Shown here: piece by piece, positions 3,440 to 63,589 of the stretch
Layout of the letters: every line of letters begins with the position of its first letter
How positions within the stretch are numbered: the first letter of the stretch is position 1
NCBI GenBank assembly: GCA_947493265.1
Contig: CANLQL010000001.1
Coordinates: 186,001 to 250,000 of the forward strand
Length of the DNA: 64,000 bases
Source of the DNA: an uncultured Litoreibacter sp.
GTDB taxonomy: Bacteria > Pseudomonadota > Alphaproteobacteria > Rhodobacterales > Rhodobacteraceae
Direction: 5' to 3'
Program-made: the position numbers and the translations under genes
The notes under the pieces: generated by a model
Told to the model about the DNA's origin: nothing
The model's database searches: none
The model's input: the letters and a program-made list of their open reading frames with translations, nothing else

Positions 3440-4510
3440 TTGACGCTTCTGGAAACATATCAAAGCAAAATCAAATCCGGTGAACTGACCGCAGATCCAG
3501 CCCAAGCGGAACTTGTCCCGGTTCTTGATGACCTTCTGGCGCAGCTGGAAGAACCTGCTAAAAAAGGTTTCTTAGGACGGTTTTCCGGCAAAACAGAGTC
3601 TCTCAAAGGCCAATACATCTGGGGGGGCGTTGGTCGCGGAAAGTCCATGCTAATGGATTTGTTCTATGAGCATGTATCAGAACCGCGGAAGCGGCGCGTG
3701 CATTTTCATGCCTTCATGCAGGAAATACATTCAGCCTTGCATGAAGCCAGAAAAACCGACGTCACCGACCCCATCGAACCTGTTGCGCAAGACGTCATCC
3801 GCGATGCGCGCGTGCTATGCTTCGATGAAATGCAAATCACGGACATTACCGACGCGATGATCGTCGGCAGGTTGTTCGAAAAGCTTTTTGCGGCTGGCGT
3901 CGTTGTGATCACAACCTCCAATCGCCCTCCGGATGATCTGTACAAGGATGGGCTGAACCGGGATCTGTTTTTGCCCTTTATCGCGCTGATCAAGGAAAAG
4001 CTCTCTATCTATGAGCTAACCAGCCCAACAGATCACCGTCAAAACCGCCTCTCAAACGAACAGGTCTATTTCTCACCAGCCGACGCCGCTGCGAAGGAGG
4101 CGATTTCGAATATCTGGAACGACCTGACCAACGGACAGGCCCATGAACACGAACTTTTGGTGAAAACCCGCAAAGTAAGGCTTCCATTATTTCACAATGG
4201 CATGGCACGCGCGAATTTCTTTGATCTGTGCGGCAATCCTTTGGGGCCTGCAGATTATCTTGCCATCGGAGACGCCGTCCGGGTCCTGGTATTGGAAGAC
4301 ATCCCCCGCCTGTCACGCGGCAACTACAACGCCGCAAAGCGGTTCGTGACACTGATTGATGCGCTCTATGAGGCCCGCGTGCGCTTGATCTGTTCAGCGG
4401 CAGATATTCCCGAACGGCTTTATGTGGAGGGGGACGGCTCTTTTGAGTTTGCCAGAACCGCGTCCCGGCTACGAGAAATGCAAAGCGACAGTTGGACGAA
4501 GATCAGCTAG
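3440..4510 (+). CDS. zapE: Cell division protein ZapE (AFG1-like ATPase)
   Basis: A 356-residue AFG1/ZapE family ATPase. Walker A is GGVGRGKS at residues 62-69, Walker B is VLCFDEMQ ending near residue 132, and ITTSNRPPDDLY is the sensor-like region that follows. In other proteobacteria ZapE acts at the constricting Z-ring; the mitochondrial homologue is a quality-control ATPase. The frame opens with TTG nine bases after the previous stop, with no upstream ATG in frame and a GAGGG-like ribosome site at the ornithine cyclodeaminase stop. It is convergent with folC: the last four bases of the two genes overlap. Confidence 0.92.
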   Translation: MTLLETYQSKIKSGELTADPAQAELVPVLDDLLAQLEEPAKKGFLGRFSGKTESLKGQYIWGGVGRGKSMLMDLFYEHVSEPRKRRVHFHAFMQEIHSALHEARKTDVTDPIEPVAQDVIRDARVLCFDEMQITDITDAMIVGRLFEKLFAAGVVVITTSNRPPDDLYKDGLNRDLFLPFIALIKEKLSIYELTSPTDHRQNRLSNEQVYFSPADAAAKEAISNIWNDLTNGQAHEHELLVKTRKVRLPLFHNGMARANFFDLCGNPLGPADYLAIGDAVRVLVLEDIPRLSRGNYNAAKRFVTLIDALYEARVRLICSAADIPERLYVEGDGSFEFARTASRLREMQSDSWTKIS

Positions 4511-41512: not shown

Positions 41513-42088
41513 ATGACTGATCTGATTGCCAAAGCTGCTATCGACCGCCGTCTGGCCGAGCTTGCCCAACCCATCATCGAGGGTCTGGGTTATGAGCTTG
41601 TGCGCATGCGCTTGATGGGCGGCAAGGTCGACACGGTGCAAGTCATGGCCGAAAAACCCGAGGGCGGGATTGAGGTTGATGACTGCGCAAAGATTTCAAC
41701 CGCGTTGTCGGCTGTGTTCGATGTGGAAGACCCGATCAGCGAGGAATACACGCTGGAAGTTTCCAGCCCCGGCATCGACAGACCTTTGACCCGGCTCAAA
41801 GATTTCGACATGTGGGAAGGCTATGAGGCGAAGATCGAAACCGACGAAATGATCGACGGACGCCGCCGCTTCAAAGGTCAGTTGGCTGGCACGGAAGGCG
41901 ACGAAGTGCTGATCACGATCGAAGAAGGCACGATCGGTTTGAAATTTGACTGGCTGTCGGACGCCAAACTTGTGCTGACCGACGAGCTGATCCGCGACGT
42001 TCTAAAGTCCCGCAAAGACGCGGGCGAAATTGACGAAACCCAATTCGACGAAGTTGAAACCATCATTGATGGTCAGGAGGACACGTAA
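41513..42088 (+). CDS. rimP: Ribosome maturation factor RimP
   Basis: A 191-residue factor for maturation of the 30S subunit. The N-terminal domain contains [19 protein letters not shown], then [20 protein letters not shown] and [20 protein letters not shown], the family signature, and a C-terminal SH3-like domain. It starts the rimP-nusA-ylxR-infB operon, which is conserved in most bacteria. The stop is immediately followed by the nusA start (TAAATG). A terminator-like attenuator lies just upstream. Confidence 0.95.
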
Positions 42089-43711
42089 ATGGCTATTACT
42101 TCCGCAAACCAGCTGGAGCTGCTGCAAACTGCCGAGGCTGTTGCCCGCGAGAAGATGATCGATCCCGAACTGGTGATCGAAGCGATGGAAGAAAGCTTGG
42201 CACGCGCGGCGAAGTCGCGTTACGGGGCCGAACTGGATATCCGCGTGTCTATCGACCGCAAGACCGGGAAGGCCACGTTCACCCGCGTCCGGACGGTTGT
42301 CGAAGAGGAAGAGCTTGAGAACCACTCTGCCGAGCTGACCGTTGAGCAAGCGAAGCAATACAAAGAAGACGCAGCCATTGGGGACGAATTGATCGACGAA
42401 GTGCCGCCCGTGGAAATGGGCCGGATCGCTGCGCAATCCGCAAAGCAGGTGATCTTGCAGAAGGTTCGCGAAGCAGAGCGTGATCGTCAGTACGAAGAGT
42501 TCAAGGACCGCGCCGGCACCATCATCAATGGTCTGGTCAAGCGCGAGGAATATGGCAACGTCATCGTCGATATCGGCCGTGGCGAAGCGATCCTGCGTCG
42601 CAACGAGAAGATTGGCCGTGAAGCCTATCGCCCGAATGATCGTATCCGCGTCTATATCAAGGATGTGCGTCGCGAACCTCGGGGTCCTCAGATCTTCCTG
42701 AGCCGGACAGATCCGCAATTCATGGCGGAATTGTTCAAAATGGAAGTTCCAGAGATTTATGATGGCATCATCGACATCAAGGCCGTTGCCCGTGACCCCG
42801 GATCGCGCGCGAAGATTGCCGTGATTTCCTATGACAACTCCATCGATCCTGTCGGGGCCTGCGTTGGTATGCGCGGCTCCCGTGTGCAGGCTGTCGTAAA
42901 TGAACTTCAGGGCGAAAAGATCGACATCATTCCGTGGAACGAAGATCAGCCGACCTTCCTTGTGAACGCGCTGCAGCCTGCGGAAGTCTCCAAAGTTGTT
43001 CTGGATGAAGAAGCAGAGCGTATCGAAGTTGTTGTTCCCGAGGAGCAGCTTTCTTTGGCGATTGGTCGTCGCGGTCAGAACGTCCGTTTGGCATCTCAGC
43101 TGACCGGTCTTGATATCGACATCATGACGGAAGAAGAAGAAAGCGCACGTCGCCAGGCCGAGTTCGAAGAACGCACCAAGCTGTTCATGGACACGCTGGA
43201 TCTGGACGAGTTCTTTGCCCAGCTTCTGGTATCCGAAGGCTTCACGTCGCTTGAAGAAGTTGCTTACGTTGAAGTGGACGAGCTTCTGGTCATCGATGGT
43301 GTCGACGAAGACACCGCATCCGAGCTGCAGGCCCGTGCCCGTGACTTCCTGGAAGCACAGAACAAGAAAGCGCTGGAGCATGCCCGCGAATTGGGTGCTG
43401 TCGACAGTCTTATTGATTTCGAAGGTCTGACACCCCAAATGGTGGAAGCGTTGGCTGAAGATGACGTCAAAACGCTGGAAGATTTCGCAACATGCGCTGA
43501 CTGGGAGCTGGCCGGTGGCTGGACGACCGTCGACGGGGAGCGGGTCAAGGACGATGGTGTTCTTGAGAAATTTGACGTTTCCCTCGAAGAGGCGCAAAAT
43601 CTGGTCATGACAGCACGTATTCAACTTGGCTGGGTAGACCCGGCAGATCTGGTCTCGGAAGAGGAAGAGACAGGCGAAGACGGTGAAGCCAACATGGAGG
43701 TCGAGGCCTGA
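42089..43711 (+). CDS. nusA: Transcription termination/antitermination factor NusA
   Basis: A 540-residue RNA polymerase-binding elongation factor. The order is an N-terminal polymerase-binding domain (residues about 1-125), an S1 domain (GTIINGLVKREEYGNVIVDI), two KH domains with IDPVGACVGMRGSRVQAVV and LAIGRRGQNVRLA, and C-terminal helix-hairpin-helix repeats (VDELLVIDGVDEDTA), ending in an acidic tail. The start abuts the rimP stop, so the two are coupled. A 540-codon frame also runs antisense to this gene, a by-product of codon bias. Confidence 0.96.
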   Translation: MAITSANQLELLQTAEAVAREKMIDPELVIEAMEESLARAAKSRYGAELDIRVSIDRKTGKATFTRVRTVVEEEELENHSAELTVEQAKQYKEDAAIGDELIDEVPPVEMGRIAAQSAKQVILQKVREAERDRQYEEFKDRAGTIINGLVKREEYGNVIVDIGRGEAILRRNEKIGREAYRPNDRIRVYIKDVRREPRGPQIFLSRTDPQFMAELFKMEVPEIYDGIIDIKAVARDPGSRAKIAVISYDNSIDPVGACVGMRGSRVQAVVNELQGEKIDIIPWNEDQPTFLVNALQPAEVSKVVLDEEAERIEVVVPEEQLSLAIGRRGQNVRLASQLTGLDIDIMTEEEESARRQAEFEERTKLFMDTLDLDEFFAQLLVSEGFTSLEEVAYVEVDELLVIDGVDEDTASELQARARDFLEAQNKKALEHARELGAVDSLIDFEGLTPQMVEALAEDDVKTLEDFATCADWELAGGWTTVDGERVKDDGVLEKFDVSLEEAQNLVMTARIQLGWVDPADLVSEEEETGEDGEANMEVEA

Positions 43712-55332: not shown

Positions 55333-56162
55333 GACAAAACAGCCTGACGAAGTGCCTGATCAACTTCTGGGCGTTTTCCAAACCAACGCTCAAAGCCCGG
55401 TGCTGCTTGATGCAACAGCATTCCAAGCCCATCGACCGTTTTGCAGCCGCGCTGTTCGGCGTCTTTCAGCAAATTTGTCTGCAAGGGAGTGTAGACGATA
55501 TCGGTGACCAGTGTCTTGGCGCTCAGACTATCGAGCTTAATCTTCAGCTCTTCCTTACCAACCATACCCAGGGAGGTTGTGTTGACCAGTGTCGCGACGT
55601 CACTCAAATGGTTAGGGGCCTGGGTCCAGTCTACGATTGTGACCTTCGCGCCGAAATGGGCCTTTAATGCGTCCGCGCGGGCACGGGTTCGATTGGCGAT
55701 TAGAACGTGAGGCACGCCTTGTTGGATCAGACCCGCAACAATAGCGCGCGCCGCACCACCCGCGCCAAGAACAAGTGCGTCGCCGTCTTTACCCGTCCAA
55801 TCAGGCGCCTCTTGTTTCAGATTGGCAATAAACCCAGCGCCGTCCGTATTGTCTGCGTGCAGTTTTCCGTCTGTCTGAAACGTCAACGTGTTTGCCGCAC
55901 CAATAAGCGCCGCACGATCTGAAACGACATCAGCAATGTTCAAAACCGCTTCTTTGTGGGGAATAGTAACGTTGACTCCGCGAAAGCCCATCTTCGGCAG
56001 ATTGTCTAGCACATGGGCTAAATCGCTGCTTTCAACGTTCATCGGGATGTAGTGCCCATTGATGCCGTATCGAGACAACCAATGTCCGTGGAGAGTTGGG
56101 CTTTTGGAGTGTGCAATAGGGTGCCCAATCACGCCCGCCAGTGGAATGGCTGAATTTGTCAT
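55329..56162 (-). CDS. aroE: Shikimate dehydrogenase (NADP+)
   Basis: A 277-residue enzyme that reduces 3-dehydroshikimate in aromatic amino-acid synthesis. Substrate-binding motifs are GVIGHPIAHSKSPTLHG near residue 10, VTIPHKEAV near 60 with the catalytic lysine, and NTDGAGF near 100. The NADP-binding site is VLGAGGAARAIV near 127. Overlaps by 4 bases with maf upstream and coaE downstream (ATGA in both cases). Confidence 0.95.
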   Translation of the reverse strand: MTNSAIPLAGVIGHPIAHSKSPTLHGHWLSRYGINGHYIPMNVESSDLAHVLDNLPKMGFRGVNVTIPHKEAVLNIADVVSDRAALIGAANTLTFQTDGKLHADNTDGAGFIANLKQEAPDWTGKDGDALVLGAGGAARAIVAGLIQQGVPHVLIANRTRARADALKAHFGAKVTIVDWTQAPNHLSDVATLVNTTSLGMVGKEELKIKLDSLSAKTLVTDIVYTPLQTNLLKDAEQRGCKTVDGLGMLLHQAAPGFERWFGKRPEVDQALRQAVLS

Positions 56163-56758
56163 CCGTCGATCATGCCTCTTAGGGTCAAGTAGTTGAGAAC
56201 TTCCAATAACGGCATTCCCAAGACAGTGAAATAGTCACCTTCGATACGGGTAAACAATCGCGCGCCTTCTGCTTCCAATTGATACCCACCGACACAGTGG
56301 CGGACCTGGTCCCAGTTTCGGGCAATATAATCTTCGATATATGTATCAGTCAGGTCACGCATATGCAGCTTTGCATGGGCCACTCTGCGCCAAACAGGTT
56401 TCGCATTTTCATAGATCACAGCAGCGCTGAAAAGATCATGCGATTTGCCGCGCAACTGGTGAAGCTGGTCTACAAGCGCGCTTGGGTTGTTTGGTTTTGA
56501 TAGCAACATCCCATCAAAGGACAGGACCTGATCACTGCCAAGAACAGCGGCGTCTGGGTTTTTCAAAGAAATCTTGCGGGCTTTATATTCAGCCAGTGCA
56601 TCAGCGATATCACGCGGCTCTACGCCTTCGCGGATCATGCTGGTCCTGATCGTCTCTTCGTCTATATTGGGTTTAGCAACATCGACATCTACGCCAGCGT
56701 TCTTGATCATCTCCAGGCGTATCGAAGATCCGGACGCGAGAATTAGTCTGGTCGTCAT
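56159..56758 (-). CDS. maf: Maf family nucleotide pyrophosphatase
   Basis: A 199-residue Maf protein. The signature LILASGSSIRLEMIKNAG lies at residues 5-22, where the Ser and Arg bind substrate; YKARKIS and VLGSDQVL near residue 70 follow. Maf proteins hydrolyse non-canonical nucleoside triphosphates; a subfamily acts on dTTP and UTP. It is the first gene of the leftward maf-aroE-coaE-dnaQ operon, and its start borders the AT-rich oriC candidate. Confidence 0.93.
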   Translation of the reverse strand: MTTRLILASGSSIRLEMIKNAGVDVDVAKPNIDEETIRTSMIREGVEPRDIADALAEYKARKISLKNPDAAVLGSDQVLSFDGMLLSKPNNPSALVDQLHQLRGKSHDLFSAAVIYENAKPVWRRVAHAKLHMRDLTDTYIEDYIARNWDQVRHCVGGYQLEAEGARLFTRIEGDYFTVLGMPLLEVLNYLTLRGMIDG

Positions 56759-57149
56759 GTTGATAACCTTCTGGATAACCTTGAGGAGGAATCGTGCATG
56801 AGTATTGAGTTATCCACGCTGATTTTCTGCAACGGCCAAGTTACGCACATTCGCAAGATTCTGTCCGATCCCTTGTTCATTCTGGATAACATTTTTTCGG
56901 GGTCTGGATAACATGAGGTTGTTAAGGTTTCTTTCACAAGTTTTAAACAAGAATTAGCAATTGGAAATATGTTAAGTGCTTGATATATATCTATTAACTT
57001 TAGTATTTCCACAGCTGTTGATTTCTTGTTCATCATTTCTTGAAGAAGGTGGATAAAGGGTTAATCCACATAATCCACACCCCCTACATACAACATCATC
57101 TTTTCTTTCTTTCTTTATTATATTTAAGAAGAACCAAACGGGAGCGTTC
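56759..57149. other. Candidate chromosomal replication origin (oriC)
   Basis: This 391-base gap holds no gene. It is visibly AT-rich from about 56935 to 57020 and has at least seven 8-of-9 matches to the DnaA box: 56758-56766, 56770-56778, 56810-56818, 56881-56889, 56903-56911, 57048-57056 and 57071-57079, with a further one at 57062-57070. Three are identical TCTGGATAA copies, the last two 22 bases apart. A 10-bp palindrome GATATATATC (56982-56991) sits within a GTTAA/TTAAC pair, a possible unwinding element. A degenerate CtrA-like TTAA-N7-TTAG is at 56943-56957. Genes diverge on both sides, and parAB and parS are close. A CTTT repeat is at 57100-57116. Confidence 0.75.
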
Positions 57150-57602
57150 ATGGGCGATATTTTGGCTACTTTTTATCCGTGGACAAAAAGTCTGCATGTG
57201 ATCTCTGTAATCGCCTGGATGGCAGGATTGTTTTATCTGCCTCGATTGTTTGTCCATCACACCGAGAAAGTCAAAGAGGGGTCTGAAACGGATGATCTGT
57301 TTCAGATGATGGAATATAAACTCCTTAAAGTGATCATGAACCCTGCGATGATCGCTACCTGGATATTTGGTCTAGCTTTGGTATTTACCCCCGGGATCGT
57401 TGATTGGTCGGAATGGTGGCCTTGGACGAAAGCGGTGAGTGTTCTGGCAATGAGCTGGTTTCATCATTGGCTTGCAAGACAGAGGAAAACATTTGTTGCC
57501 GGTGATTTTTCCCAAACGGGTAAATCCTATCGGATCATGAATGAAGTTCCGACGCTTTTAATGTTTGTGATCGTCATCTCGGTTATCGCCAGACCTTTCT
57601 GA
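57150..57602 (+). CDS. hemJ: Protoporphyrinogen oxidase HemJ
   Basis: A 150-residue membrane protein with four predicted segments. The conserved histidine (His16) is in SLHVISVIAWMAGLFYLPRL and a conserved lysine-rich YKLLKVIMNPAM region follows near residue 77. HemJ oxidises protoporphyrinogen IX to protoporphyrin IX, the substrate of ferrochelatase, using respiratory electron acceptors. It is the first rightward gene after the oriC candidate and precedes rho. hemE, which often lies here in alphaproteobacteria, is absent from this position. Ribosome site GGGAG. Confidence 0.93.
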   Translation: MGDILATFYPWTKSLHVISVIAWMAGLFYLPRLFVHHTEKVKEGSETDDLFQMMEYKLLKVIMNPAMIATWIFGLALVFTPGIVDWSEWWPWTKAVSVLAMSWFHHWLARQRKTFVAGDFSQTGKSYRIMNEVPTLLMFVIVISVIARPF

Positions 57603-57713: not shown

Positions 57714-58985
<1,272 letters not shown>

Positions 58986-60300: not shown

Positions 60301-62175
60301 GTGTTTCACGTGAAACATTCAGAGTTTGATGTCATTGTCGTTGGAGGCGGTCATGCGGGTGTTGAAGCTGCTGCTGCCGCCGCGCGTTTCGGTGCGCGTA
60401 CCGCTTTGATCACCCAAAAAGCGGCTGCAATCGGTGTTATGTCCTGCAATCCGGCCATCGGAGGCCTTGGAAAAGGACACTTGGTCCGGGAGATCGATGC
60501 GCTTGACGGTATTATGGCCCGAGCTGCAGATGCTTCCGGCATCCAGTTTCGATTGCTGAACCGTCGCAAGGGGCCTGCTGTACAAGGGCCACGCGCGCAA
60601 GCGGATCGCGCGCTATATCGCAAAGCCGTCCAGAAGCTTGTTGGTAGAATTGGTCGCCTGACGGTCGTTGAGGCGGAGGTCTCCGATCTGGCAGTCTCAG
60701 GTGATTGGATAGACGGTGTTGTTCTTGCTGACGGAACCGAAATTTCAGCGAAGTCGGTTGTGTTAACGACGGGCACCTTCTTACGTGGAGTTATCCATAT
60801 TGGGGATGTGTCTCATGAAGGTGGACGAATGGGCGATGCCGCGTCCAATCGTCTTGCGGACCGCATCCGAGGAATGGGACTACCACTGGGTCGTCTGAAA
60901 ACGGGTACACCCCCCAGGCTTGATGGTCGTACGATCAATTGGACTGGGTTGGAAATGCAACCCGGTGATGAAGACCCCGTCATGTTTTCATTTCTGTCAG
61001 ACAAGCCAGCAGCAGACCAGATTTCATGTGGGATCACCCATACGAATGAACGAACCCATGAAATCATTGAGAAAAACCTCTCAAAATCAGCGATGTATGG
61101 CGGTCACATAGATGGGGTCGGCCCAAGATACTGCCCGTCGATTGAGGATAAGGTTGTAAGGTTTGCGGATAAGTCCTCACATCAGGTTTTCCTTGAGCCT
61201 GAGGGGCTAAATGACCCGACAATCTATCCCAACGGTATTTCTACCTCGCTGCCAATCGATGTTCAGGAGGATTATGTTCATTCGATCGCCGGGTTGGAGA
61301 ATGCCGTCATTACACAGCCCGGATACGCCATTGAATACGACTACGTTGACCCGCGCTCGCTTTCCCCAAGCCTTGAGCTACGGGAGCAAGCGGGTTTGTA
61401 CTTGGCGGGCCAAATCAATGGAACGACTGGATATGAGGAAGCGGGTGCTCAGGGATTAATGGCCGGTTTGAATGCTGCACGGTCTGCGTTGGGCCAGGAA
61501 CCTTTCATTATTTCTCGTTCGAGTGGGTATATTGGGGTGATGATCGATGATCTGATCACCCGTGGCGTAGCAGAACCATATCGCATGTTCACATCCCGGG
61601 CTGAGTTTCGTCTTTCGCTTCGTGCTGACAATGCGGACCAACGACTTACTGAGCTGGGGCACGAATTTGGATGTGTTTCCAAAGAACGCGCAGAAACTTT
61701 CCGAAGAAAGCAGGATGCGCTGACATCTGCAAAGTCGAGACTGATCGGAATAGAGGTTTCCCCAACTGAAGCGGATGCCAAAGGCTTCAAAGTGCGAGCT
61801 GATGGAAAGAAGCGCAATCTGATGGAGCTTCTAAGCTTTCCAAATATTGGGTTCGATGACCTAAAAATGGCTTGGCCTGATTTGGAAGGAGTCCCGACGG
61901 ACATTGGCGAGCAGCTTTCCAAAGAGGCGCTTTATGCGAATTACTTAGATCGGCAAGACAGAGACGCTGCCGCCTTGAAAAAGGACGAAGCAATCGAAAT
62001 CCCGAACGGGATGCGCTATGATGATATAAAGGGACTTTCAATTGAGATGATTGAAAAGCTCAATAAAATAGGGCCGAACTCGATTGGTCAGGCGTCGCGA
62101 ATTGAGGGTATGACGCCGACAGCCATCACGTTGATCCTTGGTCGTCTTCGTGTTGACCAAAAGAAATCTGCCTAG
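60301..62175 (+). CDS. mnmG: tRNA uridine-5-carboxymethylaminomethyl modification enzyme MnmG (GidA)
   Basis: A 624-residue FAD protein, partner of MnmE. The FAD loop is [17 protein letters not shown] near residues 11-27; [19 protein letters not shown] and the [13 protein letters not shown] stretch are family signatures, and [16 protein letters not shown] lies near residue 377. The start is GTG at 60301, the first base before a parS site whose codons read F-H-V-K-H in this frame. mnmE, mnmG, rsmG, parA and parB run in one direction with minimal gaps. Confidence 0.96.
60302..60317. other. parS centromere site 1 (perfect)
   Basis: A perfect 16-bp palindrome TGTTTCACGTGAAACA, the universal ParB-binding parS sequence. 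It overlaps the first six codons of mnmG, 3.2 kb right of the oriC candidate and 3.3 kb left of parB. ParB loads at such sites in a CTP-dependent way to segregate the origin. Confidence 0.95.
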
Positions 62176-62179
62176 TCAC

Positions 62180-62797
62180 TTGTCTGGGATCTCATCGACC
62201 GATTTAGATGTTTCACGTGAAACAATGGCGGCCTTGGAGGAGTATGTTCGACTTCTTGAAAAGTGGAACAAGTCCATAAACCTTGTTGCCAAATCCACAC
62301 TTGAAGCGGTTTGGGAACGTCATATTGCGGATTCTGCGCAGCTTTTTTCAGAGCTACCAAGCACAACTAAATCACTAGCTGATTTGGGGACAGGCGGTGG
62401 TTTGCCGGGCATGGTCTTGGCAATCATTGCAAATGAGGCAATGCCGGATATGAGCGTAACTTTGGTTGAATCGGATGCGCGGAAATGTGCATTTCTGACT
62501 ACGGCCGCGACAAAGTTGGGCTTAGGTGTAAGCGTCAAAAACGAACGCATTGAGCAACTTGACCCGCTAGGCGCTGATGTCATCACCGCACGGGCACTCA
62601 CGTCGCTCGACCGGCTGCTTGAATTTGCACAACGCCACAGCAAGGAAGCTGGCCAGTGCCTTTTTTTAAAAGGTCAGGACCATCGAAAAGAGATTGAGGA
62701 CGCGCGAAAAATGTGGTGTTTCGATATGGATATCATTCCAAGCATCACGAATCCGGACGCTGCAGTGCTTCGGGTCGAAAATATTAGGCCGAGATAA
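62180..62797 (+). CDS. rsmG: 16S rRNA (guanine-527-N7)-methyltransferase RsmG
   Basis: A 205-residue methyltransferase that modifies G527 of 16S rRNA. The SAM site is SLADLGTGGGLPGMVLAI near residue 60; the N-terminal VSRETMAALEEY and the INLVAKSTLEAVWERHIADS stretch are family patterns. The start is uncertain: TTG at 62180 gives the family length and includes DVSRET, but TTG at 62138 and GTG at 62150 overlap mnmG, and an ATG at 62225 would drop the conserved VSRET. parS site 2 falls in the first 15 codons. Confidence 0.88.
   Translation: MSGISSTDLDVSRETMAALEEYVRLLEKWNKSINLVAKSTLEAVWERHIADSAQLFSELPSTTKSLADLGTGGGLPGMVLAIIANEAMPDMSVTLVESDARKCAFLTTAATKLGLGVSVKNERIEQLDPLGADVITARALTSLDRLLEFAQRHSKEAGQCLFLKGQDHRKEIEDARKMWCFDMDIIPSITNPDAAVLRVENIRPR
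62209..62224. other. parS centromere site 2 (perfect)
   Basis: A second perfect TGTTTCACGTGAAACA, in the 5' coding end of rsmG, 1.9 kb from site 1. It is read in a different frame (V-S-R-E-T) from site 1 (F-H-V-K-H), so the DNA sequence rather than the protein is what the two share. Confidence 0.95.
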
Positions 62798-62800
62798 GAA

Positions 62801-63589
62801 ATGACCAGCCAAAAGCCACGTATTATCTCGATCGCAAACCAAAAAGGTGGAGTTGGGAAAACGACGACGACAATTAACCTTGGCGCATCCCTGGCTGCAA
62901 AAGGTAAGCGGGTTCTGATTATCGATTTGGATCCGCAGGGAAACGCATCCACAGGGCTTGGTATTGATCCAAAGGCGCGTCGCAAAACAACTTACGATCT
63001 TCTTTTGAATGAGACGCTTCTCACAGAAACCTCTATTGAAACCGCTGTTCCAAATCTGCTTATCACACCAGCAACGACGGATTTGAGCTCTGCGGATCTC
63101 GAGATGGTGACGGCAACCAGACGGGTATTTCTGCTCGGGGATGTTATAAAAAGCGCAAACACAGACGATCTGGAATTGGATTTCATTCTTATCGACTGCC
63201 CGCCGTCGCTGAATTTGTTGACGCTGAACGCGATGGTTGCTTCAGATTCCGTGCTTGTGCCGCTTCAGGCTGAGTTCTTTGCTTTGGAAGGTCTATCACA
63301 ACTTCTTCTGTCCATCCGGGAAATACGGGAAACTGCGAACCCAAAGCTAAGAATGGAAGGTATTGTGTTAACGATGTACGATAAGCGCAATAACTTGTGT
63401 CACCAAGTTGAAACCGATGCACGGGAGAACCTCAAAGGGCTCGTCTTTAAGACGATGATTCCTCGGAATGTTCGTTTGAGTGAAGCACCGTCTTTCGGGC
63501 TTCCGGTGACAAATTACGATCCAACATCACGGGGTGCCATGGCATATAAGGCCTTGGCTCAGGAAATGTTGGAACGATTAACCGCATAG
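62801..63589 (+). CDS. parA: Chromosome partitioning ATPase ParA
   Basis: A 262-residue Walker-type ATPase. The deviant Walker A is ANQKGGVGKTTTTIN near residues 12-26, with the signature lysine in KGG; the Walker A' stretch is LIIDLDPQGNAST near 39, and Walker B FILIDCPPSLNLL near residue 127. It moves ParB-bound origins toward the cell poles. It starts three bases after rsmG, with parB nine bases downstream. Confidence 0.96.
   Translation: MTSQKPRIISIANQKGGVGKTTTTINLGASLAAKGKRVLIIDLDPQGNASTGLGIDPKARRKTTYDLLLNETLLTETSIETAVPNLLITPATTDLSSADLEMVTATRRVFLLGDVIKSANTDDLELDFILIDCPPSLNLLTLNAMVASDSVLVPLQAEFFALEGLSQLLLSIREIRETANPKLRMEGIVLTMYDKRNNLCHQVETDARENLKGLVFKTMIPRNVRLSEAPSFGLPVTNYDPTSRGAMAYKALAQEMLERLTA

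Follow-up and report, generated by a model that had tools for sequence, protein, structure and literature searches.

A probable chromosomal replication origin between maf and hemJ in an uncultured Litoreibacter sp., with a conserved block on the hemJ side

The 391-bp gap between maf and hemJ (positions 56759–57149) in the DNA of an uncultured Litoreibacter sp. is almost certainly the chromosomal origin of replication, oriC. The stretch analysed, referred to as the window, comprises 64,000 nucleotides and corresponds to C1:186001–250000 of a 3.52-Mb genome in five contigs (C1–C5). An earlier note on the window had placed the origin here, and the placement is upheld by a cluster of DnaA boxes, the GC skew, the parS sites, the synteny and length of the gap in relatives, a block that occurs once per genome, and the hemE-side gaps of other alphaproteobacteria. 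The sequence anatomy, its conservation, the single copy per genome, the skew switch and the parS position were established directly. The origin is an ordinary one in a usual place, and its likely strand-opening element is also present in related families and has the look of a modified Bacillus element. The features are listed below with window positions, strand and the basis of the assignment; the PF03653 (UPF0093) gene is one that we take to be hemJ.

56159–56758 (minus strand): maf (Pfam PF02545).
56758–56766 (minus strand): DnaA-box-like TTATCAACA, overlapping the maf start codon (one-mismatch scan).
56759–57149 (no strand): putative oriC, intergenic between the divergent maf and hemJ (conserved gap length; skew switch).
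56770–56778 (minus strand): DnaA-box-like TTATCCAGA; a box near here is kept in the family alignment.
56810–56818 (plus strand): DnaA-box-like TTATCCACG (one-mismatch scan).
56881–56889 (minus strand): DnaA-box-like TTATCCAGA, central pair (scan and family alignment).
56903–56911 (minus strand): DnaA-box-like TTATCCAGA, central pair (scan and family alignment).
56967–57006 (no strand): central AT-rich block with GATATATATC at 56982–56991 (nearest-neighbour duplex energy).
56973–56985 (minus strand): putative IHF-type site TAAGTGCTTGATA, an exact match to YAANNNNTTGATW (direct consensus test).
57048–57118 (plus strand): right element, a putative basal unwinding element of boxes, trinucleotide tract and pyrimidine/AT tract (leave-own-out profile).
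57048–57056 (minus strand): DnaA-box-like TTATCCACC (one-mismatch scan).
57062–57070 (plus strand): DnaA-box-like TAATCCACA, first of the tandem pair (one-mismatch scan).
57071–57079 (plus strand): DnaA-box-like TAATCCACA, second of the tandem pair (one-mismatch scan).
57084–57100 (plus strand): trinucleotide tract CTACATACAACATCATC, whose complementary strand would carry the trios.
57101–57126 (plus strand): pyrimidine-rich, then AT-rich tract, the second low-stability region of the gap.
57150–57602 (plus strand): hemJ (UPF0093; Pfam PF03653).
57714–58985 (plus strand): rho (Pfam PF07497/PF07498).
60303–60316 (no strand; C1:246303–246316): parS GTTTCACGTGAAAC, gidA start (genome search).
62210–62223 (no strand; C1:248210–248223): parS GTTTCACGTGAAAC, near the gidB start (genome search).
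62801–63589 (plus strand): parA (Pfam PF13614).

The flanking genes diverge from the gap, maf being read on the minus strand and hemJ on the plus strand, and the gap has a G+C content of 0.368 (37%) vs 0.542 for the 64-kb window. Seven nonamers lie fully within it, on both strands, each with one mismatch to TTATCCACA (56770−, 56810+, 56881−, 56903−, 57048−, 57062+ and 57071+); exact copies of TTATCCACA are absent from the gap, and an eighth one-mismatch nonamer (56758−) overlaps the maf start. Order-2 Markov randomisation of the gap gave a mean of 0.34 and a maximum of 3 in 2000 sequences, vs 7 observed. Three of the boxes are copies of TTATCCAGA on the minus strand (equivalent to TCTGGATAA). 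One-mismatch nonamers number 19 across the whole window, and the gap holds the densest cluster in 864 kb of the genome's own sequence (41 stretches, window included), in which 400-nt spans elsewhere never held more than three. TTATCCAGA itself occurs 20 times in the genome, three of them in the gap, and no second cluster was seen among these 20 copies. The description given in the earlier note was thereby borne out: a 391-base gap with at least seven 8-of-9 nonamers on both strands, three identical copies in one orientation, boxes one base off the consensus, an AT-rich block with a palindrome (GATATATATC, 56982–56991) and divergent flanking genes. The statement of the note that no other gap in the window exceeds 300 bases was not confirmed: a greedy ORF scan for such gaps, an unreliable procedure, left the maf–hemJ gap unlisted, presumably owing to a chance ORF there, and the 708-base gap that it gave at rimP/nusA is false.

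Loci of relatives were collected from two sources. Of 61 family genomes, 60 gave a HemJ match at E 0.001, weak in about 16, and the best 30 supplied loci; a second collection contributed 80 named loci, part of them from other families. The close relatives named in the latter, Nioella and Celeribacter among them, point to Rhodobacteraceae as the family of this genome. From these 110 loci, 20 were dropped because maf or hemJ was missing from the expected order. The gap measures 320–470 bp in 83 of the 90 remaining loci, this one included, and the other seven were left out of the family statistics. The two collections may share species; only identical gaps were to be merged, and none occurred. 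The family consensus includes maf-side box pairs, TTTTCCACTGTGGATAAGGATAA in the centre, TTATCCACAG and the IHF-like TAAATTATTGATAT; its most conserved part is a block on the hemJ side.

This 71-bp block (57048–57118), which to judge from the alignment is the most conserved part of the gap, had been missed in the earlier note. Its consensus runs in the order TGTGGATAA, TAATCCACA, ATCCACAG, CCCTACAAAATCATCATCTTTTCTTTT. A profile of the block matches 76 of the 83 gaps at E <0.01, these being the same gaps from which it was built; with the own locus left out, the profile finds 57048–57118 at E 2.3e-16, and the next best match in 800 kb of own stretches has an E value of 3.6. A sequence-only model of the block (74 loci, own locus included; threshold E 0.001) gives one hit in the own genome; of 199 family genomes, some of them donors to the model, 143 are hit exactly once each and the other 56 have no match. 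When 20 of the family hits were chosen for inspection, all lay beside maf, the gene on the other side being hemJ (10), rho (9) or hemE (1).

Across the class, 23 of 192 genomes match the same model (three of them from the own family) and 169 do not. Among 17 non-family loci read, 12 have ppsR or maf on one side of the block and hemE or rho on the other, so that the signature reaches the hemE-side gaps of other alphaproteobacterial families without recourse to skew or gene order. The five hits without the expected flanks are those of L197, L200, L202, L208 and L209. By eye, L200 (1501–1548) and L202 (1502–1547) have an origin-like arrangement of boxes and trios, in genomes of about 0.8–1.0 Mb and with no maf, ppsR, hemE or rho nearby; the hits in L197, L208 and L209 look like chance.

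GC skew was determined for 40 of the genome's own 20-kb stretches and the window, distributed over contigs C1–C4 of the five (C5 measures 54 kb by subtraction), at a resolution of about 15–40 kb. On C1 the skew shifts at the gap from about −0.03 to 0 on the left to about +0.02 to +0.10 on the right. To the right, 13 of 14 C1 stretches are positive, the exception being −0.024 at C1:700 kb; the stretch directly to the left has a skew of +0.034, contrary to the minus left arm. All eight stretches of C2 are positive, C3 passes from plus to minus, and all seven stretches of C4 are negative. Because reverse-complementing a contig leaves the type of switch unchanged, the sample contains one sustained switch of the origin type (C1) and one of the terminus type (C3). 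In the relative G003, a single-contig genome, the switch falls between the stretches at 3457–3477 and 3478–3498 kb, within 20 kb of that genome's own gap; one left-arm stretch (+0.017) and the first 20 kb (−0.006) run contrary to it. In a second single-contig relative, G050, the switch lies between 20 and 60 kb and the gap at 123 kb, and the stretch at 300 kb has a skew of −0.011.

The gap marks the sole sustained minus-to-plus switch among the sampled stretches. The cumulative G−C minimum of the window itself is at 41578, the start of rimP–nusA (41513–43711), and so misses the gap by 15 kb to the left. This local minimum is perhaps an effect of the transcribed strand. Two perfect parS sites exist in the genome, one 3.2 kb and the other 5.1 kb from the gap, and parA follows farther out; two additional sites with one mismatch are on C2 and C3. 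Both perfect sites lie within coding sequence.

Two readings would deny the gap the role of origin, and both appear highly improbable. According to one, the true origin is at another site, such as the vicinity of dnaA or the skew minimum of the window at about 41.6 kb. The position of that minimum speaks for it, as does the location of dnaA on another contig (C4:707 kb). The 3.5-kb dnaA locus, however, has three spread-out one-mismatch boxes, one of them within dnaA, and C4 shows no skew switch in its seven stretches; position 41.6 kb lies inside rimP and is without a box cluster, and both perfect parS sites are found near the maf–hemJ gap. According to the other, the gap is a mere divergent promoter or leader region of maf and hemJ, and the block is the 5′ leader of hemJ. 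In favour of this, about 30 nt separate the end of the block from the start of hemJ, and its pyrimidine/AT tract is followed by a purine run. On the other hand, the block stands about 1 kb from hemJ and directly before hemE in L136, L146 and L028 (weak profile matches with E 0.0087, 0.5 and 0.019, respectively), directly before rho in L212–L220, and before hemE in L224 (E 6e-4 or better in these); a block found where hemJ is elsewhere is not a hemJ leader. A simple scan of the gap gave no promoter-like site (shuffled sequences give 1.5), and neither an Rfam match nor a hairpin beyond chance was obtained. In the nine family members L212–L220, no HemJ match is present between the block and rho. 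A covarying hairpin of the pyrimidine tract with hemJ was considered as a candidate and rejected, the summed arms being 140 vs 132 ± 4.9 after shuffling in 28 gaps (not significant).

For the gap as oriC, we infer binding of DnaA, binding of IHF, the melting site and initiation itself from the arrangement of these elements. DnaA would occupy the boxes on the left, in the centre and on the right, each of which differs from the consensus at one base, and an IHF-type bend in the middle of the gap would bring the box arrays together. From the tandem TAATCCACA pair (57062–57079), DnaA would then extend onto one strand of the C-phased trinucleotide tract (57084–57100), and the pyrimidine/AT tract beside hemJ would open for helicase loading.

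The IHF-type site was derived from the consensus alignment and a direct test with the IHF consensus, YAANNNNTTGATW. An exact site is present in 12 of the 83 gaps vs 1.7 expected, and is absent from the other 71; eight of the nine minus-oriented sites lie 177–213 nt before hemJ. An EM search for motifs in the central region came back with the DnaA box. In the window, the GATATATATC block overlaps the putative IHF-type site.

Melting on the hemJ side is the somewhat favoured reading of where the strands part. Opening at the central AT-rich block with its palindrome (56967–57006), within an origin at the same place, is judged unlikely. By nearest-neighbour duplex energy, no 40-mer in the 64-kb window is less stable than this central block. 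Over the family, duplex stability dips twice, at the central block and at the hemJ-side tract; the least stable segment is central in 33 of 83 gaps, this genome included, whereas it falls within the last 110 nt in 50. The central block is, moreover, little conserved save for its IHF-like core, and the hemJ-side block presents itself as the more conserved candidate for unwinding.

The hemJ-side block resembles the basal unwinding system (BUS) of Bacillus subtilis, as described in excerpted text of PMC8287927, in its tandem boxes, short spacer, trinucleotides and AT tract. The BUS rule stated there asks for three or more NAN trios no farther than 16 nt from one or more DnaA boxes; the window has a spacer of 15 and exactly three trios (top strand ATC ATC TTT, read by hand), in accord with this rule, which is a loose one. 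In the family, a first trio with central adenine can be read in 56 of 83 gaps and a second in 18 of 83, the anchor used (C, T/A, A/T, C) itself restricting the first centre to T or A. As anchoring on the best C run, employed for earlier trio sets, favours that very pattern, reliance was placed on an unanchored test of period 3 against dinucleotide shuffles.

This test was applied to a sample chosen independently of the block, namely 27 hemE-side gaps of other alphaproteobacteria (the best 30 loci of 120 HemE-matching genomes, minus three from the own family). Strong periodicity was seen for the base that pairs with the trio guanine (z 11.6), with runs of at least five in 18 of the 27 gaps vs 3.8 expected; in these gaps the partner of the central adenine lacks such periodicity (z 0.7), and the other two bases gave z 1.9 and 0.3. 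In the gaps of the own family all four bases are periodic (z 5.2 to 12.2, the partner of the guanine giving 12.2 and that of the central adenine 8.3), and the family tract consists largely of CAT repeats, so that the guanine and central-adenine codes are inseparable there. On the maf side, which served as a control, z ranged from −2.1 to −0.3.

The excerpt of PMC10721633 describes a B. subtilis structure in which the trio guanine sits in a pocket of Arg202 and Glu228, and Asn187 reads the central adenine; replacement of that adenine by thymine or guanine impairs function, and replacement by cytosine does not. The DnaA of this genome has Lys, Glu and Tyr at positions 202, 228 and 187, respectively, and thus differs from B. 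subtilis in having Tyr rather than Asn at 187, just as the repeat of the other alphaproteobacteria differs in being periodic in the trio guanine and not in the central adenine. In 29 DnaA loci of the class, a sample biased to close DnaA proteins, Lys was found in 29, Glu in 29, Tyr in 28 and Phe in one. Residue 187 in 18 non-alphaproteobacterial loci is Thr (13), Gln (3), Ala (1) or Asn (1); Asn is therefore not the rule outside the class either, and a different residue may yet serve to read adenine. No clear box-plus-trio module was placed in these 18 loci or in 11 dnaA neighbourhoods (one alphaproteobacterial), so that the covariation refers to alphaproteobacteria vs the published B. subtilis system.

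Taken at face value, these sequences suggest that trio motif and DnaA reader changed together, the guanine being retained with its pocket and the central adenine given up along with its reader. A class-wide variant of the trio code is proposed tentatively and with considerable doubt: the guanine would be fixed (3′-GNW-5′) and the centre freed because DnaA has Tyr in place of the adenine-reading Asn187, with Lys at 202 and Glu228 kept, so that initiator and origin would have diverged together. With both the adenine-reading residue and the repeat different in the sampled alphaproteobacteria, the universality of the DnaA-trio code becomes testable. Parts of this finding may already be in print. 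The tree in PMC8287927 (in excerpt) marks proteobacterial classes. The excerpts of PMC10797057 and PMC6669920 contain no description of an alphaproteobacterial trio.

The suggestion that boxes mostly one base off the consensus reflect a lineage-specific preference of DnaA found no support. Domain IV of DnaA closely matches the solved domain 1j1v, presumably that of E. coli, across the recognition segment; exact TTATCCACA occurs in 28 of the 83 family gaps, and a relative of the same genus uses other variants. The count of seven boxes is the highest of the 83 gaps (average 2.49 per gap at one mismatch), the same-genus relative having just one, and TAATCCACA is the joint second commonest box variant over the 83 gaps (21 copies). 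In the same-genus locus L211 (G151; 1164–1537), three copies of TTATCCCGT are seen where this genome has three of TTATCCAGA. Concerted box variants within one gap were considered and rejected: identical pairs numbered 10 of 147 vs 8.3 expected in 84 gaps, 611 of 2000 permutations being as high, and 4 of 131 after removal of the two genomes concerned (that with TTATCCAGA and G151).

Origins in Rhodobacteraceae are known as predictions, that of Rhodobacter sphaeroides (oriC1) having been placed by cumulative skew and Ori-Finder (PMC6315104, in excerpt). An Ori-Finder set of 101 Rhodobacteraceae strains was based on DnaA boxes, a local GC minimum, a GC disparity minimum and nearness to parAB (PMC6699656, in excerpt); all four fit this gap. 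A conserved unwinding block such as that found here is not described in the excerpt of that work.

A mapped origin is available from Caulobacter, where it lies between hemE and COG1806 and has DnaA, IHF and CtrA sites (PMC1914354, in excerpt). The earlier note had pointed to this neighbourhood as that of oriC in Caulobacter and rhizobia, and the correspondence is found once hemE is allowed for: as in Cori of Caulobacter crescentus (excerpts of PMC1914354 and PMC4285127), COG1806/ppsR and maf are on one side and hemE, hemJ or rho on the other, and several DnaA boxes, an IHF-type site and an AT-rich stretch are present. Unlike in Caulobacter, a scan of the gap for the CtrA site TTAA-N7-TTAA gave none, and the tandem boxes are TAATCCACA, in contrast to the G-box TGATCCACA (PMC4285127, in excerpt). 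At the hemE loci of the class, a divergent ppsR or maf stands beside hemE in 27 of 30, the other three being own-family genomes. In the present genome hemE is located at C1:612455–613474, about 369 kb from the origin, and the gap is flanked by maf and hemJ; hemE adjoins the origin block in the relatives L136, L146, L028 and L224. The usual alphaproteobacterial boundary gene is thus elsewhere here, and the origin retains its remaining neighbours.
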